A stretch of DNA of 22,582 nt from a virus. How positions within the stretch are numbered: position 1 is the first letter of the stretch; each line of letters opens with the position of its first letter. Location of the stretch: IMG/VR virus record IMGVR_UViG_3300031576_000278, positions 1 through 22,582 of that record; one strand, 5' to 3'. A program made the translations under genes and the position numbers. This document shows positions 1 to 20,950 of the stretch, piece after piece. The notes beneath the pieces are model-generated. The model saw only the letters and a program-made list of their open reading frames with translations, had not been told where the DNA came from and made no database searches.

Positions 1-438
1 CGCCCAATAGGTGTAGCCGCTGCCGCCCATCGCCTCCGATTCCCCCTGCCACCAGAGCAGTCCCTTGACGGGGCCGGTCACGCTGGCCTCCCTGGCACGG
101 GTCAGCATGGACCCATAGAGGGCGGTCCGCCGCCAGTCCCGCCGCCATTGGTCCATCGTGTAGCCACCCTTGGCACACGGCACGAGGCCGATTTCGACTC
201 CGGGGGTCAGCTCCGCCAGCCGGTCGCCGAACGCCACGCAAGGCCCCACCAGGGCTTCATCGTCCGATACCTGGTCAATCTGGCCTGCCGAAGCGTCCAC
301 GGGCTCTGTGGCCGGATTTTGCCACGTTCCCGCGTTGGTGTAGGTCCAAACCCGCCCGGCGTTGGGGAACGCCGGGGCCGGCAGGGCACCGCGGCCGCTC
401 ATGTTCGACTGGCCAGCGCAGATGAAATTCCACCGCAT
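1..438 (-). CDS. SGNH/SASA-type carbohydrate O-acetylesterase, N-terminal part
   Basis: The first 146 codons of a gene cut by the left window edge. Translation from ATG 438 gives an immediate AGQSNMSGRG block (residues 8-17, candidate nucleophile Ser11), then GLVPCAKGG (84-92) and LLWWQGESEA (127-136). These three blocks are the hallmark of the sialate O-acetylesterase/acetylxylan esterase (SASA, PF03629) branch of SGNH hydrolases. The catalytic Asp/His block would lie beyond the edge. GGAG sits 8 bases before the ATG. It follows two fibre/chaperone cassettes, so it is probably a virion-borne enzyme that removes acetyl groups from host surface polysaccharide. That role is inferred from context; the family is seen in the sequence. 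There is no signal peptide, which fits a virion protein better than a secreted host enzyme. Confidence 0.85.
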   Translation of the reverse strand, partial: MRWNFICAGQSNMSGRGALPAPAFPNAGRVWTYTNAGTWQNPATEPVDASAGQIDQVSDDEALVGPCVAFGDRLAELTPGVEIGLVPCAKGGYTMDQWRRDWRRTALYGSMLTRAREASVTGPVKGLLWWQGESEAMGGSGYTYWA

Positions 439-748: not shown

Positions 749-1273
749 TCACGGCTCCTGGGGCCAAAGGGGTTGATACGCCTCGGCCTGGTCTGGAGTC
801 AAGGTCGAGAGGTCGGCCTGCACCGTCGCCGGCAGATCCCGCAACGCCTGCCGGTAGACCCGATAGGCGGCGATCTGCGCGGCGGTGCCCACGTCGTCCA
901 GACGGGCTTTCACCCGGTCGCTCTTGTCCAGGCGAACGTCCCGCTCCGCACGGATTTCCTTCAGACGTTCAACGCGGCAGAGAGGAACGGCTGGGCTGAT
1001 CTGACCGCCGATCAGCCGCCAGTGATTGCGGAAGCGGCGGCTGGGCAGAGAGGCTGGCTCTACGTTCGGGAGTCGAATACATGTCGCCAGACGCGGATCG
1101 GCGTTCAAGGCACGCAAGGCCACGCCGTCAAGGAACATGGCCTCAGACTCGCCTGACGCTGGGACGCCGGCTGCTGTCGTGACGATCAGGGAACCGACCG
1201 GGTAGACGATGGTGTTGCCAGGTGTCACCGTCAGCACTTCATCCGCCACACGTTGCCAAACTATCTTTTTCAT
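749..1273 (-). CDS. tail-fibre assembly chaperone, copy B
   Basis: A 174-aa protein paralogous to the product of 1852-2334. Shared blocks include RLPNVEPASLP, RNHWRLIGGQ, ERLKEIRAERD and VYRQALRDLP, followed by a C-terminal PLWP. The RxxRD...YRxxLRDLP...WP layout is typical of small phage tail-fibre assembly chaperones of the DUF4376/Phage_tail_APC kind, which usually sit directly after the fibre they help fold. Here the ATG overlaps the stop of the fibre gene (ATGA at 1270-1273) with GGAG upstream, so production is coupled to fibre B. Copy B carries extra residues near its N-terminus (about 14-36) compared with copy A. Paralogy is clear; the chaperone role is inferred from family and order. 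Confidence 0.78.
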   Translation of the reverse strand: MKKIVWQRVADEVLTVTPGNTIVYPVGSLIVTTAAGVPASGESEAMFLDGVALRALNADPRLATCIRLPNVEPASLPSRRFRNHWRLIGGQISPAVPLCRVERLKEIRAERDVRLDKSDRVKARLDDVGTAAQIAAYRVYRQALRDLPATVQADLSTLTPDQAEAYQPLWPQEP

Positions 1274-1848
1274 ACCTGGTCTCCGAAGCCAACCATTTGC
1301 ACCGTGTCCATGTCGGTAGCGGTACTTGAGAGGTTAAAGTTCGTGATCCGATACGTTCCCGCCGCGTGCATGAACCCGGTCTGGTGCGGGATGCCGAACG
1401 AGGTGGCTTGGTACCAGGCGTTAGTTACGACGCAGTAAGCCGTACTGCTGAAGTCGGTGCCGATGGTCACCGTGGTATCGCCGGTCCCGTTGTCCGCGAT
1501 GCTGTCAACGTTGTAGGGGGTACCGACAATTGCCTGTGTGCCGATCTGCTCGAAATTTACCCAAAACTTTGCGGCACTGGGATGGAATTTCTGCACCCCC
1601 GGCGTCACGGTCAACGTTGTACTGGTGCCCGTCTCCTGTTCACTCTGGACTGCGTTCTCCTGCTTGCCCTTGACGGTATCGCTGGCGTCAGGGATTAGGT
1701 TGGTCTGCTGCATCTTCCGGTTGGCCGCTGCACTCACGTCATAGATCGGAACGAAGTCGCCCGCGGCAACCGCAGTCTCCTCCGTCAACCCGTTAATGTT
1801 CGGGCTGCTGATGATCTTCTTGCGACCAGCAGAATCGATGACATACAT
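1270..1848 (-). CDS. tail fibre/receptor-binding protein, copy B
   Basis: A 192-aa protein. The N-terminal part (1-55) resembles fibre repeat/linker sequence (ETAVAAGDFVPIYDVSAAANRK). It is followed by ASDTVKGKQENAVQSEQET and VTPGVQKFHPSAAKFW, which match the 161-aa protein at 2334-2819 block by block; both also end in GDQ. The AVQSExET...VTPG block is a familiar phage tail-fibre module, and the C-terminal part is Thr/Ser/Gly-rich and beta-like, as in a fibre tip. GAGGGA precedes the start, four bases after the previous stop. It is the second fibre in a duplicated fibre-chaperone pair. The receptor is unknown, and divergence in the C-terminal half suggests different binding specificity. Confidence 0.75.
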   Translation of the reverse strand: MYVIDSAGRKKIISSPNINGLTEETAVAAGDFVPIYDVSAAANRKMQQTNLIPDASDTVKGKQENAVQSEQETGTSTTLTVTPGVQKFHPSAAKFWVNFEQIGTQAIVGTPYNVDSIADNGTGDTTVTIGTDFSSTAYCVVTNAWYQATSFGIPHQTGFMHAAGTYRITNFNLSSTATDMDTVQMVGFGDQV

Positions 1849-1851
1849 CGC

Positions 1852-2334
1852 TCATCCCTCCACCGGCCAAATCGGGTTGCAAGCGGCCACCGCGTCGGGC
1901 GTGGCAGCAGCTGCAAGGTCGGTTTGGACCGCGATAGGCAAATCCCGCAGGGCCTGCCGGTACTGATGGTGAGCTGCAATTTGGGCCGGCGTGCCGATGT
2001 CGTCCAGTTTGACTTTCGTGGCGTCGGCCTTTGCAAGCCTGGCATCACGCTCCGCCCTGATTTCCCGCAACCGTTCCGCTCGACACAACGCCACGTCCGG
2101 CTGTACCTGTCCGCCGATCACCCGCCACTGGTTACGCCAGCGTCGATCCTGGGGCAGGGCCGACGTGTCCACGTCCGGCAGCCGGGTGCAAGCTGCAAGC
2201 GAGGGGTCTGCTCCGACGGCGTGCTGGGCGATCCGGTCCAGGTAGGCCGACTCCGTCTCGCCCGGCCGCATGGGCTCGCAGGGCACCGTCACCAGGACCG
2301 AGCCTTCCGGGGCCTGCCAGAGTATGCGTTTCAT
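1852..2334 (-). CDS. tail-fibre assembly chaperone, copy A
   Basis: A 160-aa protein beginning MKRILWQAP. An alternative ATG lies one codon upstream at 2337 and forms an ATGA overlap with the fibre stop. I chose 2334 because it aligns with MKKIVW of the paralogue and has the same 7-base spacing from GGAG. Conserved blocks are RLPDVDTSALP, RNQWRVIGGQ, AERLREIRAERD, QYRQALRDLP and a final IWPVEG. Similarity to the copy at 749-1273 runs over most of the length and is plain by eye. From the family, these proteins assist trimerisation or attachment of the preceding fibre and are often absent from the virion. The function is therefore inferred, with fairly good support from the gene order. Confidence 0.78.
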   Translation of the reverse strand: MKRILWQAPEGSVLVTVPCEPMRPGETESAYLDRIAQHAVGADPSLAACTRLPDVDTSALPQDRRWRNQWRVIGGQVQPDVALCRAERLREIRAERDARLAKADATKVKLDDIGTPAQIAAHHQYRQALRDLPIAVQTDLAAAATPDAVAACNPIWPVEG

Positions 2335-2819
2335 CATTGATCTCCATAGGCAGCAATGGACCCGATGGCCGTGTCCTGCGAGTCCTGGGTACCGATCCGC
2401 ACGGTTTGGATTGCCAATGCCGTCGTCGTCGGAGCTACGCCGTTGCGGAAACTGCATGTGCAGTACTCAGTCCCGGCCCCGGACGAATTCACCCCCGCCG
2501 CCGACCCGACGGCATACGTCGCTGCGCTGAAAGCCGTCGTGAAATTGACCGTCACGAGCCCGGTCCCTGCATCGGTGAGCGAAGAAACATTGTGGGTCCC
2601 AACCGTCGTTACTGCACCGCCGGCCACGGTCCAGAGTGCCCACGCCTTCGCCACCCCGGGATGATACTGCGTCCGACCCGGTGTCACGGCCCGTGCCACG
2701 TCCGTCGCCGTCTCCATCTCGGACTGCACGGCAAGTTCGATGATCCCGGCCGCCGTGTCGCTGGCGTTGTCCGGGGTCATGTCGTATTTTTCTTCGCCGC
2801 TGCTGTTCAGCACTTTCAT
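2334..2819 (-). CDS. tail fibre/receptor-binding protein, copy A
   Basis: A 161-aa protein with ASDTAAGIIELAVQSEMET (residues 20-38) and AVTPGRTQYHPGVAKAW (44-60). This is the module seen in many tail fibres and in the 192-aa neighbour. Residues 61-161 are rich in Thr, Ala, Gly and Val, predicted as beta strands, and hold a Cys pair (EYCTCSF). It is short for a stand-alone fibre, so it may be a tip that attaches to the 677-aa or 111-aa protein encoded upstream. The start lies three bases after the upstream stop. A fibre role rests on the recognised module and on the chaperone that follows; receptor specificity cannot be read from the sequence. Confidence 0.75.
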   Translation of the reverse strand: MKVLNSSGEEKYDMTPDNASDTAAGIIELAVQSEMETATDVARAVTPGRTQYHPGVAKAWALWTVAGGAVTTVGTHNVSSLTDAGTGLVTVNFTTAFSAATYAVGSAAGVNSSGAGTEYCTCSFRNGVAPTTTALAIQTVRIGTQDSQDTAIGSIAAYGDQ

Positions 2820-3159: not shown

Positions 3160-5193
3160 TCAGAACCCCATGTAGTGGGTCAGCAGGGACACGTCGCTGC
3201 TACCGCCGCCGCCAATCCCTCGCTGCGTGAAGTAGTTCGTTCCGTCGCTGAAGATCCTGACGCCCTGGTTCGTCGTCAGGGCCAGCGTTGCCGCCCCGTC
3301 AATCGTGCTGGTCGTCGGCGTGATCGTCGCCGTACCCGCGCCGCGGTTCTGAAAGTCGGCCGACCAGCCGCGAAGGAACAGCCCAGAGGCCCCGGCTTGG
3401 GGCAACATCACCGCAACGGAGCTGGCGTTGGTGAGCGTCACCAACGCCTTTTCGTCATGCGTCGTCACCGTGTAGGACGTGCCGGTCTGGGCGTTGACGA
3501 GAGACTTCCGCCCCTCGTCCACCACTCGCCAACGGCCGTTGAACGCCTTGAAAACAACCCAGTCGCCAGCCGTGTACCGACGCGACGTCGCCTCACCGCC
3601 CGGTATCGTCAGCACGCCGCTAAGTTCGACGTAGCTGGTCAGTTCGGCCGTGCAGACGAAGCCGATGAACTTGCCGTCGTATCCGGTGGCGTCAAAAAAC
3701 GTCAGAGTGTACGGCCCGGTTCCAGTGAGCCGGTTCCAGGCGTCGCCATTGGCCACGTAGGTCAGCGTGCCCGACGACAGATGATTGATGTTGACTTCGA
3801 GGTAGACTTCGGCCGACAGCCAGTCGTGCGGAGTCCCCCCGGTCATGTTGGTGAAGGTGACCGCTTTCGTAATCGTGCTCGCCAGCGTCAGAAACGCTTC
3901 GGTAGGCGTGCTCGTATTCTGCACGTCAAGGCACGTTGAATCCGCAGTCACGATCCAGGTGTTATCGACCGTCGTCGGCGAACCGGCGTCATCCCGGACC
4001 TTCAGCCACCAGGTTTCCGCGGACTTAAACGGCGCCGGCCGCGGCCCGCGAATCACCTCGGTCTTGTACCCCGCGCCGCGATCTTCCCAGGACGTTCCGA
4101 GGATGATGCTCGCCGGCCGGAGCCCCGCCTCGCCGAAGCTGTTGCCGTAGATCCTGTGCAACCGGCCCTGCCCTTGCCACAGGTTCCGGTAGTAGTCCGT
4201 CACCCGATCGGTGGCTCGCGTCGTCAAGGCCGCCGCGTTCTGAATCACGCCGCTGGCGTTGTACAGCGCGGGCAGGTCGTCATAGAGCAGGGCCTTGGTG
4301 CTGCTCTCCTGGCCGGTGGTCACCGCGTCGGCCGTCGGGTCGGATTGGTCCACCGTGTACCACGGTGAACTGCCCGGCGTTTGAGGCTGCTTGGGGAAGT
4401 GGACCCGGACCTGCGCTGGGATCCGGGCACGCACGCTCTCCAGCGGGTAATCGTCCCAGATCTTGGTATGGTCGCTGTCGTGAGTGTCGAGAGCGGCCGT
4501 TGCCGTGGCGTCGGTCGCGCCCAGCCGGACGATGGTGAAGGCATCCGTGATCGGATCCAGCTTCAGGGCGCACGCCAGCCGGGCCAGCACGATGCCGAGC
4601 GAGTCCCAGGCGGACGCGCCGTAGAAGATGAAGTTCTCTGGCGAACCGTCCGGCGAAAACGGCAGACCAGCATAGGCGCCCAGCTTCGATGTACCGATGG
4701 CCTCCCAGATGTTCTGCACCATCTGGGTCCAGGTCCACTGACTGCCGCCGGTGAGCGTGCCACTGTGAAAGCTGCTGTTGCCCGGCGCCTGGCGGACGTT
4801 GTAGGCCGCGTTGATCGGGATGTTGCGATACAGCCGCCGCCGGTCGGCCAACTCGACCAGGTAGGGCGTGTCGCTGCCGCCGCTGGCGCCCGGGGAGACG
4901 GCTTCGGCGTGGACGACGACCAGGTTCTTGAGGGTGACGGACCGGACCGCGGCATCGCTCCCGGCCACGTTCTGGTTGCTGAAAACCAGGTCGTGCAGGT
5001 CGTTGATGCTGGACAGACTGTCGATGCTGGCCCGGTCGAGCAGGATCCACCCTTCGCCCGGCTCTTGACCCAGCAGGCACCGGAAGCTGTTCGGCCGGCC
5101 GGCCCACCAGCCGACGGGCAGCCGCTGCTGCTGGCAATCGGCCAGGAGCGGCAGGGGATCGAGACATCGCTTGCCGCCGAAAGTGATGCTCAC
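3160..5193 (-). CDS. large tail-tip/baseplate protein
   Basis: A 677-aa protein. I chose the GTG at 5193 because it overlaps the stop of the MuF gene (GTGA) and the protein pattern changes exactly there; an upstream extension to 5352 would only read the MuF gene in another frame. Residues about 1-380 contain mixed alpha/beta sequence (WILLDRASIDSLSSINDLHD, LVELADRRRLYRNIPINAAY) like a baseplate hub. Residues about 400-677 are beta-rich. The C-terminal part, ending GVRIFSDGTNYFTQRGIGGGG, resembles segments found where fibres attach. It lies between head-morphogenesis and fibre genes, the usual place for a tail-tip protein. No enzymatic motif was seen. The structural role is probable and the exact part is unknown. 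Confidence 0.7.
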   Translation of the reverse strand: MSITFGGKRCLDPLPLLADCQQQRLPVGWWAGRPNSFRCLLGQEPGEGWILLDRASIDSLSSINDLHDLVFSNQNVAGSDAAVRSVTLKNLVVVHAEAVSPGASGGSDTPYLVELADRRRLYRNIPINAAYNVRQAPGNSSFHSGTLTGGSQWTWTQMVQNIWEAIGTSKLGAYAGLPFSPDGSPENFIFYGASAWDSLGIVLARLACALKLDPITDAFTIVRLGATDATATAALDTHDSDHTKIWDDYPLESVRARIPAQVRVHFPKQPQTPGSSPWYTVDQSDPTADAVTTGQESSTKALLYDDLPALYNASGVIQNAAALTTRATDRVTDYYRNLWQGQGRLHRIYGNSFGEAGLRPASIILGTSWEDRGAGYKTEVIRGPRPAPFKSAETWWLKVRDDAGSPTTVDNTWIVTADSTCLDVQNTSTPTEAFLTLASTITKAVTFTNMTGGTPHDWLSAEVYLEVNINHLSSGTLTYVANGDAWNRLTGTGPYTLTFFDATGYDGKFIGFVCTAELTSYVELSGVLTIPGGEATSRRYTAGDWVVFKAFNGRWRVVDEGRKSLVNAQTGTSYTVTTHDEKALVTLTNASSVAVMLPQAGASGLFLRGWSADFQNRGAGTATITPTTSTIDGAATLALTTNQGVRIFSDGTNYFTQRGIGGGGSSDVSLLTHYMGF

Positions 5194-6314
5194 GCGGGCC
5201 CCTCCGGCGTGCGCCAGCCGGGCGACGGCTCGAAGACCGGCATCGGAACCCAGGCCGGCCGGGCCGGGGGGGCGCCCGCGTGAAGCCAGTCGATGGCCTC
5301 CTGGATGCCGAGTTCGGCGGCACGGCGGATGCTGACGGGAGAAAATCCACACCGGCAGTTCCAGTCCCAGGGTGGCCGGAATTTCTTAAAAACAGGATCA
5401 TCCCGCCTGTAGACGTTGGTCCCCTGAATGCCCAGCTGCTCCAGGGCCCGGTGTTCCGGCCGCGAGCGGTCGTCGTGGATGGCGAAATACTGGACATAGG
5501 GGAACAGGGCCCCCACGATTGGTTTGTCCAGAATCCGCTCCATCCCCTCCGAGTACGAGCCGTAGACGTTGGCACGGAACACTGTCTCCATGTGCTGGGG
5601 AGACAGGAACGCACCTTCCCCCACCACGGCCTGAACTCGCTCCCCAAACGCATCCAGGGTCTCGCCACGGGCGGTCACCTCGGTCAGCTCCGCCTGGATT
5701 TTCCCGATGGCCGCGTGCCCCAGATTTCCCGCAACCGTGAACGCCTTCCGCCGTGCCGTGGCGTCCAGGTCCTGATACTCCTGCTTGGTCAGCACCTGGC
5801 GGTCTTGCAGGTCTTGGACCGCGCCTTCGATCAGTGGCAAGTTCACGGGATGGGGCGGTTGTCCCGCGGGGATCGCCCCGATTGCCGTCCAGGGCGGTTG
5901 TGGAGTAAGGGGCGGTGCTGCGGCCGTGACCGCTTCCGGGACGTGCTCGGTGACCCGCTGCATTCCAATCAGAATGCCGGCCAGCTCGGTGGCAGCCAGC
6001 GTCCGGGCGATGCCGGGCAGGTGGCGTTCCAGGGCCTGCCGAAGCCTCTGCTGACGGCCGAAGGGCGATGGCTCGCGGGCGGCTACCAGCAGGGCCTGCC
6101 GGAGGTCCTTCGCCCGGCGGGAGTGCTCACGCAAGGCCCGCTGGACCAGCTCTTCAATTCGGCGGTCGTGAAAGTGGGGAATGGGGTCCACGGCAAACTC
6201 GTGCCCACCGCTGGGCGGTACGGCGACGTCGGCGTGCGCACCGTCGCCGAGGTCTACGCGGTGCGTAAACACGTCGTCCAGCCACTGCTCGGGAGCGTCG
6301 TTCACTTCGGCCAT
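5190..6314 (-). CDS. MuF/gp30-like head morphogenesis protein
   Basis: A 374-aa protein from ATG 6314, which overlaps the end of the 1419-aa gene by 13 bases. The C-terminal half carries the classic MuF signature: DDRSRPEHRAL (residues 281-291), then PVFKKFRPPWDWNCRCGFSP (307-326), including the paired Cys of NCRC. In Mu, SPP1 and relatives this minor capsid protein binds the portal and is carried into the head. The middle (about 150-250) is helical. Codons upstream of 6314 are open, but they read the preceding gene out of frame, so the longer form is rejected. MuF normally follows the portal gene directly, which supports the portal call for the gene before it. Confidence 0.88.
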   Translation of the reverse strand: MAEVNDAPEQWLDDVFTHRVDLGDGAHADVAVPPSGGHEFAVDPIPHFHDRRIEELVQRALREHSRRAKDLRQALLVAAREPSPFGRQQRLRQALERHLPGIARTLAATELAGILIGMQRVTEHVPEAVTAAAPPLTPQPPWTAIGAIPAGQPPHPVNLPLIEGAVQDLQDRQVLTKQEYQDLDATARRKAFTVAGNLGHAAIGKIQAELTEVTARGETLDAFGERVQAVVGEGAFLSPQHMETVFRANVYGSYSEGMERILDKPIVGALFPYVQYFAIHDDRSRPEHRALEQLGIQGTNVYRRDDPVFKKFRPPWDWNCRCGFSPVSIRRAAELGIQEAIDWLHAGAPPARPAWVPMPVFEPSPGWRTPEGPA

Positions 6315-9300
6315 AGCCCGTGTTTCTTCCAGACTGCGGCACAACGGGGGAAGTGCCTTTCGATCTTGGCGGCGCCGTGATCGCTGGCCCAAGCCAGCCG
6401 GGCGAACTCGGCAAAACCCTCGCTCGCTTCCGTGGTCGCGTACCGGCTCAGCTTCCCGCCGGCGATCTCCGCCTTGAAGGCCGCTTGCCACTCCAGGCCC
6501 CCGCTGATCTCGTGCTTGGGGCCGTCCACTGCATGGGCGAACTCGTGCGCGTAAGTGTGATGGGCCGACGCCTCGTTCTTGCTCCGAAAGTGCTTGCTGG
6601 TCTCCTGAAGAATGTTGCCGTCTAGGTGAAACTGTCCTTTGCTCGGCTGATAGGCGCCGCCGATCTTGCCGCCTTGGGCTACCAGCTTCTGGATGGCCGG
6701 GTGCCGCGCGGAGAAATACTGGTTCAGGGACTGGCTCGTGTCGTGGAACGTGAATCCCTTGGCGTGCTGGGCAAATCGCTTCAAGGCCGCTTCCGGCATC
6801 CGGCCCAGGACCTTCTTCACTGATTCGCTGTAGTGCTTCTTGTTCGCGGCGCTCAGGTGGGCCATGCCCTGGATCTGTGCGTCGATGTCGCTGTGGATCT
6901 TGCCAGCAGGAGACTCGTGGGTCGGCGTCTCCTTGGGCTTTGCTGCGACCGCCTCCTGCTGTGCCATCTTGACCATCTCGACACAGGCCCGCAGTTTCTG
7001 CACCGCCGCGCGGTCTTTCGGGTTGGCCTTCAGAGCCATCAGGGCGTTGCCGGCCAGATGGTGAACGGCGGTCGAAATACTCGTGCCGCTGGCCTTCAGC
7101 TTCTGGTATGCCTGGGCGGCCACCTGCTTGGTCTTCGGTCCCAGGGGCAGGGCACTGACCTTCTTCAGGGCACCAATGGCCTCCTGGGGGTTGGCCGTGA
7201 CTTTGGCGGCGTGCGGCCCAGCGCGCCAGATGTTGCCTCCCCTGGAACCCGTGCCGACCAGGACCCACCCCGGACCTGGGGCGCGGGGACCGTGGTACTC
7301 GGCGGCGAATTCAAAAGGGCGGCTCTGCTCATCCTCCTGCAGGGTGCCGGCCTCTCGCTGGGCCTCGGTGGAAAACGGAACACCGCTGTCCTCTGGCGAC
7401 TCCTGCTTGTGCTCCATCAGGTAATCGAACGCCTGTGTGTAAGCCTCTTCCTCCGTCATCGGCTCCGGGTTGCCCTCGGACAGCATCTCGAAAAGCCTCT
7501 CCTGCGGATCATGCCCGGCAAACACGTCGGGGTAGCGTTCCGCCATGCGCTCGGCAACGTCGTCCAGGCCGCGGACTGAATCCGAATCGACCCGGCCGCC
7601 GGCAATCCGGGCCTTCAAACTGGTCAAACTGCCGTACCCCAGTCCTTCGCTGGTCTTCCTCGCCTCCTGCAGGATCTTGGTCCGTTCGGCCTTGAACGCC
7701 TTGTCGTGGGCCAGCACCTCGGCGGCCATCTGGTGAAGGTGCTGGGAGTTCAACCCTTCTTGTCTGGCCTTCTTAGCGAAGACGGCGCGGGCGTAGCCCC
7801 TGGACTGGCTCAATTGCTTCCGATGCCCATCTTCTTCCGCTTCCTCCTGGAGGGCATCGATCCGTCTGCCTGTCAGGCTCGGATGGCCCTTCACGATCTT
7901 GCCGCCCTGTACGAAAACCGGACTGCCCCCGTGGCTGTTGCCGTCTTCGCCTTTGCGCCCCCCAATCGTGATCCACCGGCCTTTGCCAGTGGCGGTTGCG
8001 AACAGGGACGCCCGGCTGGCGCCGCCGATCAGCCGGAATGGTTCCGAGGCCATTCTCCCCGCCGGCTTGCTGCTCACTGGCTTCGCCGACTCCTTGTGCT
8101 CGCCCCGGTCGAACCACTCCGAAAAAGAAAGATCGTGCTCACCCAAATCTTCCTTGAGCTTTGCCCATTCCTGCCGGGTCTTGGTCACCGTGTACCCGTG
8201 CGCGGATTGGAGCGTTACCGGCTCATCTGGCTCCCGGCCGGCAAAGGCCACAATCTGTCCGATCCCACGGCCAAAGGACTTGGCCTTTTGCCGGCCGCCC
8301 TGGTCAACCACCGTTAGGTCTTCGTCGTGGTCCAGGTAGACCCGGCCGCCCTTGTCGGTCCGCAGCCGGGCCAGTTCGTCCGGGTGGACCTTGACACCGC
8401 CACCAAGGACCACATGGTGGCGGATCGTGCGGCCCGAGGCAGCAGACTGAACCGGCTCGCCGCGGTGAATCTGGAGGTTGCCCGCCCGCTGTTGCTTCTT
8501 CGCTTCTCGAACGTGCTCCGCCTTGACCCAGGTGCCGTCGTCGTCTCGTGGGTGGTCGGTCTCGTCGAACAGCGATCCCAGCTCCCGGCCAAGCCAATCG
8601 TCGATCTGGGGCAGCTCCGTCGGCCCGCTCGGCAGCTGGAACAGCCGCTCCCGCGGAATCGGCTGCTTGGCCCATTCCATGATTTCCGACAGATCGATGG
8701 GATAGAGCTTCCCCTGCCACTCCAGGGCCCCGGGTCGCTCCTGGCCAGCCAGGCCGGGGATCTGCTCAATGGCCTTGTTGCCGAGATAGATGGTGGCGAA
8801 GTTCTCCGCCGTGTCGCCGTACCCGGCAATCCCCCAGGCGTTGACCCGCGAGGACTGACCGATGCCCACCAGCCGCATGGCCCCGTGCCGGCCGCGCTGG
8901 GCCAGCCGACGGATCAACAGACCTGCGCTGTCGGGCAGCTCCGAAACCGTGTCAGGCACCTCGTCGAACACGATGGTCAACGGCTCGAAATCGTGAGTGC
9001 CCTCCTGCAGTTTCCCACCACGGCTGCGCATCTCGTCCAAGAGGCCCTGGATCGCCGTGTCGATGGGGCCGCACTCGCCTTGCTTGCTAACGGTAACGGC
9101 CGGCAGGTCACCCCAGTGGCCTGGCTCCCAAACGGGATCGATGACGAACAGCATGCCCTTGGCCTTGGCGGCGATCGCCTGGGCGATGGTGCTCTTGCCG
9201 CTCCCGGTGTTGCCAATGATCCGCACATGGGGCGCCACGTTCGCCACCAGGTCGCCCCAGCTGGTGGGCTCGGCATCGGCCAGCGCCATTTCCTTGCCTC

Positions 9301-10561
9301 CCTTGTCCAGCCCGCCCAACAGATTGTCGAACGGCAGGGCCTGCCCTGGTTGCTCGCCTTGGCCGGGCGGTCGTCCTGGCGGCGGTCCTCCCTGCCCCGG
9401 TCCCTCTTCTCCATTCATGATCTCCGGAATCGTCAGCTCAACTTCAATCTCGAACCAGGCCTCGGGGCCGTAGTTCCACGCAACCATTGGCTTGCCGAGC
9501 TGGACCGACCAGGCCCAGACGATGGCGCGGGCGTTCTTCAACTGGCCGGCGTAGAAGCCGATCAGCGGCACCTTGCGGCCGCTGTACCCACTGCCGGTCT
9601 CGCTGGCTTCCAGCAGCTCCGGGGGCACGCCGATACCGCAACTGATCTGCTTCTCGAGGTAGTCGCTGTAACCGATGAGCGGGCCGACGTCCAGGACGTG
9701 GTCGGGCCACTCATATTGCCATTCGTACTCGCCCCTGTCGTCGCGAGTGCCGGGCAGCGCGGTACTGATGCCCGCCTTGGCCTGTTCGGTCCACTGGCGG
9801 GCCTTTTCGCGCGCGGCATCGAAGTCCGTGGTGCCGTCGTTCCGGCGGAACGCTTTGACGGGGTAGCGCATCGTCGGCCCGCGGTAGGCGAAGCGGTAGA
9901 AGCCGCCGTCGATCACTTCTTCACCGCCGTCGGGGTAAGCCAGCCGGCGCCAGGGCCGCCAGGCTCCCAGCAGTTGCGTCCGGCCATACCAGCGGTGGAA
10001 TCGCCGGTTGTGGGCGAACCAGAACGCTTTGCTGGGCCAGCGCCCGGGGCCCCACAGGTGAACCTTGCCCTGCGCCCCCTCCACGTTTTGCACGCTGATG
10101 CCGCGGTACTGCTGTTTCTCGGTCCGGACCCACACGTCCAGGGGGAAGAAGTCGATCAGCGAATCGTACTGGAGAAGGCCCTGCTCGTCGCAGTAGCTGG
10201 GCTCGCCACCGATCCAGCCGTAATCGTAGCTATTCTGCGCCTGGGACAGGGACCGCTCCCAGAACCGGCTGATTTGCTTCTGGACGAACTCCCCGACTTG
10301 GGAACTGCTGGCCTTGATCTTGAACTTGGCGGAGGCGATGCCAGCCCGGTAGTAGGCAAGAGGGAGGGCGACCTTGGGGTGCAGCAGCATCGCCTCGATG
10401 TCGGGCAAGATGTTCGTGACGTGCTGCCCGCCGCGGTTCCAGAAGGACGTGACGGGGAGCCGGGGCCGGTAGCCCAAGGTCAGGGGCTCGCCGGTCAGAA
10501 CACGCGCGGCTTCCGCCTGGGTGCGCGGAGCATCTTGGACGGTGCCGTTCAGTGTGTCCAT
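6302..10561 (-). CDS. portal-like / FtsK-HerA-type ATPase / metallopeptidase fusion
   Basis: One uninterrupted 1419-aa frame. Residues about 20-385 look like a portal of the Mu gp29/DUF935 kind (GGQHVTNILPDIEAMLLHP, GIGVPPELLEASETGSGYSG, then an aromatic-rich segment), and MuF follows. A Gly/Pro linker (384-410) leads to a P-loop ATPase (about 430-650): Walker A GNTGSGKST (450-458), Walker B LTIVFDE (528-534), and RGRHGAMRLVGIGQS (556-570), as in FtsK/HerA ATPases. Residues 660-1220 are of unknown function and include a basic linker and GGSPVFVQGGKIVKGHPSL (878-896). The C-terminus has HEFAH (1339-1343) and a downstream EGFAEF (1381-1386), a gluzincin-like zinc site similar to lethal-factor-like domains. 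Typical portals of this kind are about 500 aa. No strong ribosome-binding site precedes the ATG. The domains are seen; their joint function is inference. Confidence 0.85.
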   Translation of the reverse strand: MDTLNGTVQDAPRTQAEAARVLTGEPLTLGYRPRLPVTSFWNRGGQHVTNILPDIEAMLLHPKVALPLAYYRAGIASAKFKIKASSSQVGEFVQKQISRFWERSLSQAQNSYDYGWIGGEPSYCDEQGLLQYDSLIDFFPLDVWVRTEKQQYRGISVQNVEGAQGKVHLWGPGRWPSKAFWFAHNRRFHRWYGRTQLLGAWRPWRRLAYPDGGEEVIDGGFYRFAYRGPTMRYPVKAFRRNDGTTDFDAAREKARQWTEQAKAGISTALPGTRDDRGEYEWQYEWPDHVLDVGPLIGYSDYLEKQISCGIGVPPELLEASETGSGYSGRKVPLIGFYAGQLKNARAIVWAWSVQLGKPMVAWNYGPEAWFEIEVELTIPEIMNGEEGPGQGGPPPGRPPGQGEQPGQALPFDNLLGGLDKGGKEMALADAEPTSWGDLVANVAPHVRIIGNTGSGKSTIAQAIAAKAKGMLFVIDPVWEPGHWGDLPAVTVSKQGECGPIDTAIQGLLDEMRSRGGKLQEGTHDFEPLTIVFDEVPDTVSELPDSAGLLIRRLAQRGRHGAMRLVGIGQSSRVNAWGIAGYGDTAENFATIYLGNKAIEQIPGLAGQERPGALEWQGKLYPIDLSEIMEWAKQPIPRERLFQLPSGPTELPQIDDWLGRELGSLFDETDHPRDDDGTWVKAEHVREAKKQQRAGNLQIHRGEPVQSAASGRTIRHHVVLGGGVKVHPDELARLRTDKGGRVYLDHDEDLTVVDQGGRQKAKSFGRGIGQIVAFAGREPDEPVTLQSAHGYTVTKTRQEWAKLKEDLGEHDLSFSEWFDRGEHKESAKPVSSKPAGRMASEPFRLIGGASRASLFATATGKGRWITIGGRKGEDGNSHGGSPVFVQGGKIVKGHPSLTGRRIDALQEEAEEDGHRKQLSQSRGYARAVFAKKARQEGLNSQHLHQMAAEVLAHDKAFKAERTKILQEARKTSEGLGYGSLTSLKARIAGGRVDSDSVRGLDDVAERMAERYPDVFAGHDPQERLFEMLSEGNPEPMTEEEAYTQAFDYLMEHKQESPEDSGVPFSTEAQREAGTLQEDEQSRPFEFAAEYHGPRAPGPGWVLVGTGSRGGNIWRAGPHAAKVTANPQEAIGALKKVSALPLGPKTKQVAAQAYQKLKASGTSISTAVHHLAGNALMALKANPKDRAAVQKLRACVEMVKMAQQEAVAAKPKETPTHESPAGKIHSDIDAQIQGMAHLSAANKKHYSESVKKVLGRMPEAALKRFAQHAKGFTFHDTSQSLNQYFSARHPAIQKLVAQGGKIGGAYQPSKGQFHLDGNILQETSKHFRSKNEASAHHTYAHEFAHAVDGPKHEISGGLEWQAAFKAEIAGGKLSRYATTEASEGFAEFARLAWASDHGAAKIERHFPRCAAVWKKHGLWPK

Positions 10562-11416: not shown

Positions 11417-11878
11417 ATGATTCGGTTCAAGTGCCCGTTCTGCTCCGCTACCATCAAAGCATCCGACGCAGCCGTCGGCACGTCGGTCAAGTGCCCTTCC
11501 TGCACCTGGGAATTCGATGCCCCCGGAGGGTCGGCCGATTGGGAAAAGGAACCGCCGCCCGTTCGACGGCCAGACGCTCCCGAACTGGCTGGGCTACCGT
11601 CCGAAAACGTCACTGAATCGCCAGCGGTGCCGGCCCAAGATTCGGAACCGGTTTTCCATCAACCAACTTACTATCCACCGGTGCCGGTGTACGCGGTCAA
11701 CCCAGAGCACCGGTCATCATTCAAGCAAGCCTTTGGCTGGGGATGCGGCCTTTATCTTGGAATAGTGGCCGCTGCCGTTGCAGTGACGCTGGCAAGCTGG
11801 CTGCTTTGCTGTGGCGGCCTCCATTTTGTTGGCCACTGGATCGGCAAGACGAGCCAGACTACCTCGCGGGCTCGCTAG
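11417..11878 (+). CDS. zinc-ribbon membrane protein, moron-like
   Basis: A 153-aa protein and the only accepted gene on the plus strand. It begins MIRFKCPFCSATIKA and has KCPSC at 25-29, giving a zinc ribbon with Cys6, Cys9, Cys26 and Cys29. A Pro-rich low-complexity linker follows (about 45-100), then one hydrophobic segment (about 110-132, GIVAAAVAVTLASWLLCC) and a short basic tail. GGGAGG lies 8 bases before the ATG. Zinc ribbons of this opening are very frequent in planctomycete membrane proteins, so the gene may have been taken from a host. It sits as an island in the late operon and its stop overlaps that of the opposing 595-aa gene. A lysogeny-expressed host-modifying role is possible but unproven. 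Confidence 0.78.
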   Translation: MIRFKCPFCSATIKASDAAVGTSVKCPSCTWEFDAPGGSADWEKEPPPVRRPDAPELAGLPSENVTESPAVPAQDSEPVFHQPTYYPPVPVYAVNPEHRSSFKQAFGWGCGLYLGIVAAAVAVTLASWLLCCGGLHFVGHWIGKTSQTTSRAR

Positions 11879-13662
11879 GCCACCCCTGCCGTGTCCAGTG
11901 CCGGGTTGGCGATCACTGGCAACGAACGCGGGGCCGATGGCAGTTCGTAGAACAAATCCCACGTTTTGTAGTGAATCGGAATCCCGCCGACCGCCGACGC
12001 CACCCCCTCGTCGATCACCTGGTGGGCCAGCGTTGCCCGAACCCCGCCGACGGTCTCCAGATGAGGCGTTGGAACGCGGTGGGCAAGGCGCAGGGCCCGG
12101 CCGGTCATCCGGACCATTGGGGTGGGGCTGGAGCGGCGCTGCAAGATGTCCGGGACGGGCGACGAGGCCGCTGCCGGCGGGTGATCTTGCGCCAGCGCGG
12201 CGGCCGCGGGGTTGCTCGGCTGGTTGGGCGGCGGGGCAACGACGACCTCGCTTGCGGCGACCGGCAGTGGTTTCAGGCGGACGATACTCTCGTCTTCAAC
12301 AAAGCGGATGTTGCACCGATAGGCGATCCAGGAACTGGCCGGGTTGATGAGCCGGTTGGCGTTGGCTCCTAGTATCTGGATGGGCCGCAATATCGCCTGC
12401 CCGGCCGGCCGCAGGTTGCCCGGGCGCAGAATTGCCTGCCCCAATGTGCTAAGGCTCGAAGTGCCGGCCGTCAGCGTACTAGTGCTGCTGCTCGCCAAGC
12501 ACAGATCGATAATCGCGTCCATCTTCGGGTCGAACTTGATCTTGGCGGAACCGCGAATATGATGTGCCGTCTCCGCCATGCTGGTTTTCCAACGCTCGAA
12601 GGTAATCCCCTCAACCCGCGTGAAAAGCCCCGTGAACTCAATCAGCCGGTGGATCGGTGCGCCGATGATCCGGTAAGTCGTGACGAAGTCCACCGTCCGG
12701 CCGAACATCTCTTCGTCGATTTCGAGACTGTCGATGAAGACCGCGGGTTTCTCGTTTTGGACAGCCACTACCAGCCCGTTGATCCGGTCCCGGCTCTGGT
12801 GGACGCGGCTATTGACGATCACCTTCCATTTCTCGAACGCATGGGCAACCGGCTTGTCGGGGGCCACTGTCAGGCTGCCGGAAATCGTGGCGAAGATGTA
12901 GTAGGCGTCCTTGCCGCGGTTCCAGCGGACGCGGTGCCGGACGCTCGCGTAGGTGCAGCCGTCCGGCAACGGGTAGGGCAGCTCCGAATCGACCCAGGAG
13001 AAATCGAGCCGGCGACGGTTCTTGGTGAGCTTGTACGTCCCGGGTTCACGCCGGAATCCAAGCGGCACGTCGGACGCTAACTTCTCCCGGTAGAAGTCGG
13101 CCACGTCTGGAATATCACGGGTGCCGGTCGGCCGCGAGGCGGGTACTTCCAGATAGCCGCTCACCATGATCTTGGACATGCCGTTGCCGTCAACGGTGTG
13201 CTGCCAATCGTAGTTCCAGGCCATGATGGCTTTTTCGTACTTGCCGGAGTCGGCGCAGTAGGGCACGCGGGTTGAGCAGCGCCATTCGACCAGGGCGGCT
13301 TGTTTGTCGCCCTCGGGGGTGAAGCTGAGCACCTTCGGCTTGGGGCCGTAGTCCACATCCTTGGCCGTGCCGCCAGCGGTGTTCACCTGAAGCGTTCCCC
13401 AGCCCTTGCTGGTGTAGGTGAGAGCGAGGCCCGGGGCCTCCAGTTGCTGGTGGACCGTGGCCATCGTGGTGTCGATGCCGCTGTCGGATTGGACGTGCCC
13501 GGAGAGGTAAATCTCGTGTTCGACGGCAACGATGGTCCGGCCCGCTTCGTCCCAGATCGGCGTGGAGGTGACGTTGGAATGAAACAAGGTCCCGAACACC
13601 ACGTCGCCGTACTGCGCGGTGCCGCCCGCAGGCAGGGAGTGAGAGCCGATGGTGGTCGTCAT
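11875..13662 (-). CDS. 595-aa tail structural protein
   Basis: No family is recognised with certainty. Residues 1-390 are mainly beta-type sequence with many Trp and Tyr (VRWNRGKDAYYIFATISGSL), as in tail or baseplate proteins. About 395-430 is a Ser/Thr/Leu linker with a short internal duplication of GQAILRP. About 470-510 is Pro/Ala-rich and probably disordered. The last 90 residues form another small domain. The ATG overlaps the previous stop (ATGA at 13659-13662). It lies after the tape-measure-like gene, where distal-tail proteins are normally encoded. The structural call is by position and composition. Confidence 0.68.
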   Translation of the reverse strand: MTTTIGSHSLPAGGTAQYGDVVFGTLFHSNVTSTPIWDEAGRTIVAVEHEIYLSGHVQSDSGIDTTMATVHQQLEAPGLALTYTSKGWGTLQVNTAGGTAKDVDYGPKPKVLSFTPEGDKQAALVEWRCSTRVPYCADSGKYEKAIMAWNYDWQHTVDGNGMSKIMVSGYLEVPASRPTGTRDIPDVADFYREKLASDVPLGFRREPGTYKLTKNRRRLDFSWVDSELPYPLPDGCTYASVRHRVRWNRGKDAYYIFATISGSLTVAPDKPVAHAFEKWKVIVNSRVHQSRDRINGLVVAVQNEKPAVFIDSLEIDEEMFGRTVDFVTTYRIIGAPIHRLIEFTGLFTRVEGITFERWKTSMAETAHHIRGSAKIKFDPKMDAIIDLCLASSSTSTLTAGTSSLSTLGQAILRPGNLRPAGQAILRPIQILGANANRLINPASSWIAYRCNIRFVEDESIVRLKPLPVAASEVVVAPPPNQPSNPAAAALAQDHPPAAASSPVPDILQRRSSPTPMVRMTGRALRLAHRVPTPHLETVGGVRATLAHQVIDEGVASAVGGIPIHYKTWDLFYELPSAPRSLPVIANPALDTAGVA

Positions 13663-16856: not shown

Positions 16857-17381
16857 CTACGGCTCGACAAAAATCTCACTCGGGTAATCCCGGTGCTGCG
16901 GGTACGGTGTCGCCGATGGCTCCGAAATCGGCCGTTCGACTCGGACCTTCTTCACGATGTTGAGCGGGTCAACCCGAACGTTGCTCCACGCCGGCCAGGC
17001 GGCGTTCCGCTGGCCGATGTCCGCCAGGGGGTGCCCGCCGTTGCGGATCTTCTCCAGCCGCTCCATCGCTTCCTTGCAAGCGTCGGCGATGCTGCCCGGC
17101 GACGGGTTGCCGCGCCTGATCGACAGCCACTTGGCCGCCAAGACAATGGCGACCTCGTTGATGACCCAGGACGTGGCCAGATCCGCCGCGGTGTAGAGGG
17201 CCAGGCAAAAGTCGTTGACCTTGGCCGTCGCCCACTGGATGGCGCTCGTGATATAGCCCGTCTCGGTGGCCGACAGGCTGCCGCCCGCGTCGTCATCGAC
17301 CCGGCTTTCGACGCCCGTCACCGACAGCAACGCCTCGATGTCGGCCTGCGTGCAATAGGTGGTGCTGATCGTAGTCGGCAT
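16857..17381 (-). CDS. Mu gp36-like head-tail connector (DUF1320)
   Basis: A 174-aa protein. It begins TTYCTQADIEALLS, then DDDAGGSL, YITSAIQWATAKVNDFCLALY, VINEVAIVLAAKWLSIRRGNP and a C-terminal helix AMERLEKIRNGGHPL. This order (YxTxxDI, helix with paired Ala, RRG, EL..I..G) is that of DUF1320/gp36 connectors, which ring the portal and form the neck. The ATG lies eight bases after the U-tract of a terminator, with GGTGA three bases upstream, so expression needs read-through or a start within the terminator region. Confidence 0.8.
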   Translation of the reverse strand: MPTTISTTYCTQADIEALLSVTGVESRVDDDAGGSLSATETGYITSAIQWATAKVNDFCLALYTAADLATSWVINEVAIVLAAKWLSIRRGNPSPGSIADACKEAMERLEKIRNGGHPLADIGQRNAAWPAWSNVRVDPLNIVKKVRVERPISEPSATPYPQHRDYPSEIFVEP

Positions 17382-17993: not shown

Positions 17994-19094
17994 TTACGGC
18001 GTCGTGTCGGCAATGAACATCGCGTCCGGTGTCGTCCAGACCGGCAGGAAAGTGTCGCCGTGGTGCAGTTCGGCTGTCATCGGGTTGCTGGTCGGCACGC
18101 CGTAGGCGAACATGCCTTGCTTCAACTCGAAGCTTTCCTTCGCCGCTTGCAGGCTGGCCATCGGCTGGAACGAGGTCGGAACCGGGTAGGTTCCTTCCAT
18201 CCAGTGGAACAGCATTTCCTCTGGCTCCGGGATGAACGTCACCTGGTCGGCGTCCCACCAGTTCTGAATAGTCGCGTCCTGGTCGCTGAAGAACGCGCCT
18301 TCCTGCACGGGGATCCAACTGAGCCCGAACAGGCCGTCCGGCAGTTCGCCCGTGGTCAAGAAGTGATCCTGCATCCGCGGATTGCGGTAGAAAAACTCCT
18401 TGACCTGCGTGTTGCTGGCGAAGTAGGTCGGGATGTTGCGGCCGTAGAGCGCGTACTTGAGCGGGTGGCCCGTCCGGCGCACGCTCGTTTCCTTGATCTT
18501 GCGGATGTGCAGCGGGATGTCCGTGCTGGCCGTCGCCCAGCTCGCCGTGATGATGGTTGCGCTGGCGACGTCCAGCAGCGTGGTCCGATTCGCGGCCGCG
18601 ATCCCGTAATCGACCGTGACGACGGCGCCCGAGCTGGTGGGCAGCAGATTGCCGTTGCCATCGAAGTAGATGTAGCCCAGGGCGAACATACTGTAGAGGG
18701 CCGACAGTCGCGTGTTGTCGAACAGCCGCCGGAACTGAACCGCCTGCCGGTCCACCTCTTGCTGCCCGAAGTTCTGCGGCTGGTAATTGTCGTAGCCGCG
18801 CAGGGACTGGTAGAGCTTCACATCGAGCGTGAGATGTTCAAAGAAGTGCATCAGTTTGATGTCGAACACGCCGACGGCGGACAGGGCACGCCGCATGGAC
18901 GGCGCCCCGTACTCGACACGTCGGGCCGTCTGTCGAGTGCCGGCGTAGCGGGTGTAGCGCCCCTGGTCTCCCAAGGTGCCTTTCTTGTTCGCCCAGAACT
19001 TGGGGGGAAGCACGTCCGGGATGCCGGTCTTGACATCCTCGACGATGCCGCACAAGTAGACATAACCGAGGACTTGCTCCAGTGTCTTGGCCAT
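17994..19094 (-). CDS. major capsid protein, lambda gpE-like
   Basis: A 366-aa protein. I start it at ATG 19094 (MAKTLEQVLGYVYLCGIVED), because the in-frame extension to GTG 19169 would run through a strong hairpin. It shows features of the Phage_cap_E family: an early proline-rich region (TGIPDVLPPKFWANKK), a long central helix and loop (YDNYQPQNFGQQEVDRQAVQ), an RLFDNTRLSALYSMFALGYIYFDGNGN segment (given in part), FLTTGELPDGLFGLSWIP-like spine strands, and a conserved end where MTAELHHGDTFLPVWTTPDA fits the C-terminal strand. Length is close to the usual 340-370. The Shine-Dalgarno is weak, so translation may depend on RNA structure. It is preceded by a decoration candidate, in the lambda D-E order. 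Confidence 0.87.
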   Translation of the reverse strand: MAKTLEQVLGYVYLCGIVEDVKTGIPDVLPPKFWANKKGTLGDQGRYTRYAGTRQTARRVEYGAPSMRRALSAVGVFDIKLMHFFEHLTLDVKLYQSLRGYDNYQPQNFGQQEVDRQAVQFRRLFDNTRLSALYSMFALGYIYFDGNGNLLPTSSGAVVTVDYGIAAANRTTLLDVASATIITASWATASTDIPLHIRKIKETSVRRTGHPLKYALYGRNIPTYFASNTQVKEFFYRNPRMQDHFLTTGELPDGLFGLSWIPVQEGAFFSDQDATIQNWWDADQVTFIPEPEEMLFHWMEGTYPVPTSFQPMASLQAAKESFELKQGMFAYGVPTSNPMTAELHHGDTFLPVWTTPDAMFIADTTP

Positions 19095-19139
19095 CTGCCG
19101 GGTACCCGAACGCCCCTGCGGAGGCGATCTGCGAAGGAA

Positions 19140-19180
19140 GCGAGCGGCCGGGGTGCTCGCAGTCAGCACCCCCGGCTCGC
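19140..19180. other. intergenic hairpin before the major capsid gene
   Basis: The arms CCGGGGTGCT (19148-19157) and AGCACCCCCGG (19165-19175) pair around a 7-base loop, with outer GCGAG/CTCGC pairs (19140-19144, 19176-19180). It lies between the stop of the 74-aa gene and the capsid ATG. No U-tract follows on the minus strand, so an mRNA processing or attenuation structure is more likely than a terminator. Confidence 0.65.
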
Positions 19181-19471: not shown

Positions 19472-20950
19472 TTAACTGATACGGTAGCCGACCCAGGTGT
19501 TGGCCCCGGTGTTGCGGAACCGCCAGATTGCCGAGCCAGGGGAGGTCCCCGCAACGATTGGACCAATCGTCACAGTGCCGATGAACGTAACGTTGCCGTC
19601 GCCTGCCGTCATGGTCAAAATATCATCGGCGCCAGCACTCCCGATCAGGACCACATGGACGTTGAAAGCATCTCCCACGGCCAGACCAATACCGCAAGCA
19701 GCAGAGAGTTGCGCGCCGGTTGGCGTAGTCAACGTGCGTCCCGTTGTGACATCACCGGACAGGATGCCATTGACGAACTGCGCCGCAGTTGGAGCCCAGT
19801 TACCATCAGCGATCGCGGTCGTCGCCGCCGTCTGTTGCGAGAAGATGAGGCCGGTAGGCGAGCGAAGGTGCAGGCCACCGTTGACGCCTGTGCCAGTCAA
19901 GGCGCCGGGGGTGATGATGACCGCACCGCCCGAACCATTGGTGGAAGCCGCCGCGCCGCCGGTGACCGCGACATTGCCGCCGTTGCCGGTCGCGCCAGCG
20001 CCAGAGGCCCCGCCGATCAAGCTGGCAACCGCGCCCGCAGCCGTGCCCTGGCCTGCCCCGGCGGTGACCGTGGCCGCGCCGCCGATGGCATCGGTCGCAC
20101 CGCCCAGGCCGCCCGTCAGGAGGGCCGCGCCGCCGGTACCGCTTCCGGCACCGGCGCCGCCGATGGCTCGGATCAAGCCACCCGCAGTGTTGGTCCCGCC
20201 CGCGCCACCGGTCCAGATTACCGTTCCTGCCGCACCGGAGCCGATGCCCGCGCCGCCCGTGCCACTCAGAGCACCGCCGGCCCGGTTGGTGCCGACGCCC
20301 GCTGCGGGATTGATCGTGATGGCGCCGCCGGCCCCGTCCACCGGGGTGCCGGTCGCAAGGGCCAGGTCGCCCGAGGCCCCGGAAGTGGCGCCGCCGGCGC
20401 CCGTGGTGACCGTGGTCGCGCCGCCGGTGCCGGTCGCTCCGGCAGCCCCGCCACGCACCGTGGTTGCGCCGCCGGCCGCCGAACCTTGCCCTGCGCCACC
20501 GGCAACCAGGGCCGTCCCGCCGGCACTGTCGCCCAGGGTGCCGGCCCCGCCCCTCATGATCGCGGCGCCGCCAGTCCCAGAGGTTGCGCCGCCGGCCCCA
20601 CCTGCCAGCGTTACAGCTCCGCCCGCCCCCGTCGCGCCGCCGGCCCCGCCCGTATTAGTCACGGCCCCGCCAGCGCTGGAGCCGGAACCAGCCCCGCCCG
20701 TTTGGGAAGTCGCTCCGCCGGCCGAGTTGCCGGCCGTCGCCGCACCACCCACCAGGGAGGCCGCACCGCCTGCCCCAGAGGTCGAGCCGCCGACACCGCC
20801 CGTCACGCTGATTGCCCCGCCGGCCCCCGTGTCGGCGGGGAGCGGACCAGCGCCGACCAGGGTCAGCGTCGGGTCCTGGCCACCGAAGGCCGAGACGTAG
20901 GCCGTCCCGGTGACGACGATGTTATCGAAGTATTGAGTGATCGCAGCCAT
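19472..20950 (-). CDS. glycine-rich solenoid-like virion protein
   Basis: A 492-aa protein. Residues 1-40 are ordinary. Residues about 43-360 are low complexity with strict periodicity: a GGA-xxx-h-x-GG unit recurs at about residues 60, 77, 93, 109, 126, 143, 159, 175, 224, 240, 256, 272, 289, 323, 340 and 357, so every 16-17 residues. This suggests stacked turns of a solenoid or polyglycine sheet. Residues about 365-492 form a compact beta domain (TTGRTLTTPTGAQLSAACG, GDAFNVHVVLIGSAGADDIL, WRFRNTGANTWVGYRIS) of a kind found at the ends of phage fibres. GGGAGAAA precedes the ATG. It is likely a head fibre or capsid appendage, as it lies between decoration and capsid genes. Confidence 0.75.
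   Translation of the reverse strand: MAAITQYFDNIVVTGTAYVSAFGGQDPTLTLVGAGPLPADTGAGGAISVTGGVGGSTSGAGGAASLVGGAATAGNSAGGATSQTGGAGSGSSAGGAVTNTGGAGGATGAGGAVTLAGGAGGATSGTGGAAIMRGGAGTLGDSAGGTALVAGGAGQGSAAGGATTVRGGAAGATGTGGATTVTTGAGGATSGASGDLALATGTPVDGAGGAITINPAAGVGTNRAGGALSGTGGAGIGSGAAGTVIWTGGAGGTNTAGGLIRAIGGAGAGSGTGGAALLTGGLGGATDAIGGAATVTAGAGQGTAAGAVASLIGGASGAGATGNGGNVAVTGGAAASTNGSGGAVIITPGALTGTGVNGGLHLRSPTGLIFSQQTAATTAIADGNWAPTAAQFVNGILSGDVTTGRTLTTPTGAQLSAACGIGLAVGDAFNVHVVLIGSAGADDILTMTAGDGNVTFIGTVTIGPIVAGTSPGSAIWRFRNTGANTWVGYRIS
19871..20824 (-). repeat. tandem 48-51-bp degenerate coding repeats
   Basis: About 19 imperfect in-frame units encode the 16-17-residue Gly/Ala motif of the surrounding gene. 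The DNA is correspondingly rich in GCCGCC, GGTGGC and similar runs. Copies are diverged, so recent expansion by slippage is unlikely. Confidence 0.7.

Follow-up and report, generated by a model that had tools for sequence, protein, structure and literature searches.

A Mu-type portal protein with a C-terminal FtsK/HerA-type ATPase domain and a zincin metallopeptidase in a probable phage genome fragment

The locus and its long open reading frame

The stretch of DNA analysed here (the window) is an entire IMG/VR record of 22,582 bases, which is probably a fragment of a phage genome. Positions 6302..10561 of its minus strand hold an open reading frame of 1419 codons without interruption, which encodes a portal domain, a linker, a FtsK/HerA-type ATPase domain, a middle region and a metallopeptidase; the plus strand has stops in the same interval. 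Judged from base composition, a frame of 1419 codons would be expected to contain ~34 stops by chance, and the probability of finding it open is about 1e-15. The GC3 value is 0.862 in the portal part and the ATPase part alike, with 0.825 for the other genes; it drops to 0.69 across the short Gly/Pro linker and is slightly reduced, at 0.78–0.80, in the middle region. As codon usage is equal in the portal and ATPase parts, a chimeric assembly is judged unlikely, and portal, ATPase and peptidase very probably constitute a single fused reading frame as drawn.

The frame lies among head and tail genes. A MuF-like minor head protein (5190..6314, minus strand; PF04233, 4.7e-8; phrog_220, 3e-31) is encoded directly downstream, as expected for a Mu-type portal, and its likely start at 6314, placed by inspection, overlaps the end of the portal frame. 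Further genes on the minus strand encode a protein that is conserved upstream of the portal in related phages (11875..13662), a Mu gp36-like head-tail adaptor (16857..17381; phrog_195, 2.7e-5; PF07030, 1.2e-4, just below the cut-off) and the major capsid protein (17994..19169; phrog_29, 1e-14; PF03864, 1e-6).

Within this minus-strand late operon there is a lone plus-strand frame (~11420–11878), which encodes a zinc ribbon and a hydrophobic stretch and gives a weak LysW-like match. The minus-strand gene at 19472–20950 specifies a 492-aa Gly/Ala-rich protein built of degenerate GGA-type repeats, for which there is neither a family match nor a tandem repeat in the DNA. A cassette at 749–2819 (minus strand), composed of a tail-fibre-like gene and a tail assembly chaperone (PF16778), is duplicated, and the corresponding genes of its two copies (2334–2819 with 1852–2457, and 1270–1848 with 749–1273) are 38% and 51% identical. 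Adjoining the fibre genes is the start of a SASA-type carbohydrate acetylesterase (1–438, minus strand; PF03629, E = 1e-30), which is cut by the contig end.

Domains of the fused chain

Residues 1–385 (9407..10561, minus strand) form the Mu-type portal domain. In direct profile searches of the N-terminus no library names it as a portal, and the domain itself does not match Portal_Mu (PF06074). Relatives were found using the neighbouring MuF protein as query, which gave three records with a homologous portal, and a profile made from these returned 24 loci, ~20 of them distinct. Two of the homologous portals, L003 and L010, score above the Pfam cut-off for Portal_Mu. An AlphaFold model of the portal, built from 21 sequences (pLDDT = 79.5), is confident over residues ~15–385, except for 37–48 and parts of 211–330, and its best match to a solved portal in a Foldseek comparison is the G20C portal (E = 4.6e-13), with the phage Mu neck also recovered (E = 4.2e-8). 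Since the relatives are homologous to Portal_Mu and the predicted fold resembles those of solved portals, residues ~15–385 are identified as a Mu-type portal by homology and fold. A portal-like N-terminus (~20–385) had been proposed from the sequence in an earlier note, and it is borne out by this indirect route. In the Mu gp29-type portals (PF06074) the portal fold is likewise present and a MuF gene likewise comes next, but they are devoid of a 1000-aa extension, and the gene described here differs further in sitting downstream of the capsid and tail genes. Searches of IMG/VR contigs and phage records with the whole protein gave no match, and a fold search of BFVD returned no named portal fusion.

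The portal is followed by a Gly/Pro/Gln-rich linker (residues 386–424; 9290..9406, minus strand) that is modelled with a pLDDT under 50, and L003 and L010 have comparable linkers behind the portal. A Shine-Dalgarno-like AAGGGAGG with an in-frame ATG at codon 425 (9287..9304, minus strand; −11.3 kcal/mol) is the strongest such site among the starts examined, and this ATG coincides exactly with the start of the ATPase. A separate ATPase-peptidase product of 995 aa might possibly be made from it. Going further, the ATPase-peptidase part might be mainly a separate protein, produced from this internal start or split from the portal in reality, with a lost stop or an assembly fault having joined two neighbouring genes; most of the relatives do have a bare portal that stops at ~400–445 aa. 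We regard such a separation as unlikely. The fused relatives have Shine-Dalgarno-like sites of equal strength at unrelated places, so that the start at codon 425 is a lead and not the preferred reading. Moreover, the linker is like that of other fused portals, the frame is open throughout, codon usage is uniform, C-terminal fusions are recurrent in the portal clade, and a single frame of L008 encodes this portal together with this peptidase.

The FtsK/HerA-type ATPase domain (residues 425–656; 8594..9289, minus strand) was assigned by homology and motifs. On the same strand are its Walker A motif GNTGSGKST (residues 450–458; 9188..9214), its Walker B motif LTIVFDE (residues 528–534; 8960..8980) and the segment RGRHGAMRLVGIGQS (residues 556–570; 8852..8896), which contains a conserved Arg 558 and the sensor Gln 569. 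Residues 425–656 are most closely related to ATPases that cyanobacterial plasmids encode as separate proteins (best E = 1e-20), and the homology covers the full domain, more than the P-loop alone. With FtsK/HerA-like ATPases of cyanobacterial plasmids and phages, such as those of Pseudanabaena pPg_01 (WP_281009589.1) and Nostoc pDU1 (WP_011666303.1), the domain has in common the Walker A and B motifs and the Arg and Gln motifs, and K456, D533, E534, R558 and Q569 are all retained at 24–32% identity. Those proteins differ in standing alone and in possessing a hydrophobic N-terminus and further C-terminal parts; because these membrane and C-terminal parts are absent from the fused chain, the function of its ATPase may differ.

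FtsK_SpoIIIE and DUF87 are the top Pfam families for the domain but score below the cut-offs (18.4 bits for a cut-off of 24, and 18.9 bits for one of 23.2). The same holds for the majority of the plasmid relatives, of which L030 alone attains the DUF87 cut-off. The ATPase model is of low confidence (pLDDT = 54.6); among PDB structures it comes closest to the FtsK motor and EssC. Membership of the FtsK/HerA group thus appears well supported by motifs and homologues, and less so by the fold. Similar stand-alone proteins of 419 aa were found in IMG/VR contigs, and a query of viral contigs with the ATPase alone gave no match. The genome contig match L041 was rejected as an ATPase relative, as it is an ABC transporter. 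Among the stand-alone ATPases, L058 and L060 (6001–7323) match L037/L039 almost exactly at the N-terminus and the C-terminal end, yet diverge strongly in the ATPase core between them, which gives the impression of a core exchange.

The ATPase fusion comes from one metagenomic contig only, and the domain might for that reason be seen as a plasmid ATPase that was inserted recently and does nothing for the phage. This is very improbable given that all five residues named above are kept at such low overall identity. In addition, codon usage already matches that of the portal part, which argues that the ATPase is not recent and is probably under selection.

Beyond the ATPase, a middle region (residues 657–1218; 6908..8593, minus strand) resembles, over residues ~753–1030, the extension of the L004 portal (E = 6e-6). 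The chain ends in a zincin metallopeptidase domain (residues 1219–1419; 6305..6907, minus strand), which is homologous to the C-terminus of the L008 portal (34% identity, E = 8e-32 to 3e-34). There is also weak similarity (E = 0.004–0.012) to L003, which itself resembles a PHROG peptidase in its C-terminal region (E = 1.7e-6) and gives a sub-threshold match to Pfam ATLF there. The active-site motif HEFAH (residues 1339–1343; 6533..6547, minus strand) is accompanied by D1346, the His of GQFHLDG (1309–1315) and the Glu of EGFAEF (1381–1386). In the survey of polyvalent proteins by Iyer et al. 2017 (PMC5512222), a phage-type peptidase clade is described as having HExxH, an Asp three residues on, an upstream His and a later Glu, all of which are present here. 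Taken together, homology and motifs, and for the portal the fold, uphold the earlier description of a portal, a FtsK/HerA-type ATPase and a metallopeptidase in one 1419-aa chain, with GNTGSGKST, LTIVFDE, GIGQS (566–570) and HEFAH at the residues originally given for them.

Related portals and the source of the packaging motor

Extensions at the C-terminus occur in 6 of the ~20 distinct relatives. They consist of a MuF domain with HEMGH (L003), a MuF domain (L010), a region with HELGH (L008), a 2H phosphoesterase (L026) and two unassigned regions (L002, L004). The L026 gene (9812–12007) fuses the portal to a 2H phosphoesterase-like domain that matches PF13563 at its cut-off. A search of the 21 related records with an ATPase profile found nothing, fused or separate, and the same domain order, which had been put forward as something to look for in other planctomycete phages, did not recur in these relatives: none of the about 20 distinct portals carries an ATPase. 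Since L008 has the portal and the peptidase in common with the target, without the ATPase, the ATPase was probably inserted into an extension that was already there; within the sample, this lineage alone acquired it. In this Mu-like portal clade, the C-terminus appears to be a site where cargo domains are exchanged.

There is no terminase in the window, as the earlier note had remarked with the proviso that one could lie outside it, and only 3.4 kb of the contig lie upstream of the capsid gene. L002 and L004, which have the same gene block and the same portal, encode ordinary large terminases at distances of ~7 and ~6 kb, respectively, upstream of their own capsid genes, that of L002 belonging to phrog_38, and phrog_2 was matched in 10 of the 21 related records. 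As the position of TerL in the relatives lies beyond the contig end, the absence of a terminase is uninformative, and we would expect packaging to be performed by an ordinary terminase encoded outside the fragment.

FtsK/HerA-type ATPases package DNA in other viruses, and an ATPase covalently attached to a portal, in a window without a terminase, could for these reasons be thought to replace or assist the terminase as a portal-tethered packaging motor, as had been suggested. Several observations make this highly unlikely. Syntenic relatives with the same portal have a normal TerL 6–7 kb upstream of the capsid gene, past the end of this contig, and the phrog_2 matches in related records point the same way. 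The ATPase is attached at the luminal C-terminus and not at the external clip: the C-terminal crown of the portal is inside the capsid while terminase docks on the outside, and the crown of the Mu-like phage JBD30 is likewise inside (PMC6702177, PMC11445458). A large terminase needs an RNase H-like nuclease in addition to its ATPase; no nuclease domain was found in the frame, whose sole match to a terminase profile is at the P-loop (residues 443–473, E = 0.024). Finally, sister phages carry unrelated domains at the same site. A HerA/A32 packaging ATPase of the kind found in membrane-containing jelly-roll viruses was also considered, but does not fit this virus, whose capsid is of the tailed-phage kind and which has portal, MuF, adaptor and tail genes.

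A proposed role for the extension

On balance we favour, with some reserve, a portal bearing a polyvalent cargo extension, in which a FtsK/HerA dsDNA-translocase domain derived from a plasmid- or phage-type ATPase is followed by the middle region and the zincin metallopeptidase. That the extension is luminal cargo and not a packaging motor is likely, whereas its ejection and action in the host are put forward tentatively. Residues 15–385 form the portal and, because portal C-termini face the capsid lumen, the whole extension would be expected to project into the head next to MuF, by analogy with solved portals. The peptidase might cut the disordered linkers, either at maturation or after infection, and so free the ATPase. 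As the least certain step, the freed ATPase may enter the host with the genome and, for instance, move, segregate or guard the incoming phage DNA.

The cargo pattern is suggested by the unrelated domains (MuF, metallopeptidase, 2H phosphoesterase) that occupy the same attachment site in sister phages, and an exchangeable enzyme site, together with disordered linkers and the peptidase, is best explained by cargo freed to act on DNA in the infected cell. However, the head would have to accommodate a large load of additional protein, ~12 × 1000 aa, and the cargo reading is further weakened by the restriction of the fusion to a single contig, by the low pLDDT of the ATPase model and by the Pfam FtsK and DUF87 scores below the cut-offs.

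Alternatively, the ATPase could stay attached as a ring round the portal channel inside the head and drive or gate DNA at ejection or late packaging; 12 portal subunits could give two hexamers. FtsK/HerA motors are hexameric dsDNA pumps, the catalytic motifs are intact, and the ring would be coaxial with the DNA channel. If true, two otherwise separate viral DNA-translocation machineries would be merged in one protein that moves DNA from the head side. This arrangement seems improbable, as ATP would have to be available within the head or virion, the presence of a long disordered linker together with a peptidase points to release, and the other fused relatives have non-motor enzymes at the same site.

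The cargo reading has precedents, in that fusions of portal and MuF proteins to enzymes with zincin peptidases are known already. In the sections available of the polyvalent-protein survey, enzyme domains fused to portal or MuF are described, and processing by the peptidase followed by injection is proposed (Iyer et al. 2017, PMC5512222). The present chain, with an ATPase and a peptidase as disparate enzymes on a portal, resembles those proteins in joining a virion protein to unrelated enzyme domains and to a zincin metallopeptidase that has the same additional active-site residues, and in its location among the head genes of a portal-terminase phage. It differs in its FtsK/HerA ATPase domain, which is not among the domains described in those sections, where FtsK is represented only by its wHTH and the translocase is SWI2/SNF2 (PMC5512222). 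In the MuF polymorphic toxins of temperate phages a head protein at the portal similarly carries a C-terminal enzyme, metallopeptidases among them (PMC5576092); here it is the portal that acts as carrier, MuF is encoded by a neighbouring gene of its own, and no immunity gene was identified.

A text search of the literature, with subscription journals mostly outside its scope, found no portal fused to a FtsK/HerA ATPase. For dsDNA viruses, terminase-portal machines and HerA/FtsK machines are regarded as two alternative routes of genome movement. The polyvalent-protein survey contrasts phages that use one with phages that use the other (PMC5512222). A HerA/FtsK motor on a portal would place both types of machine in one chain and widen the list of enzymes that phages may carry in the head, and the apparently swappable C-terminus of the portal could serve to find other effectors of early infection.
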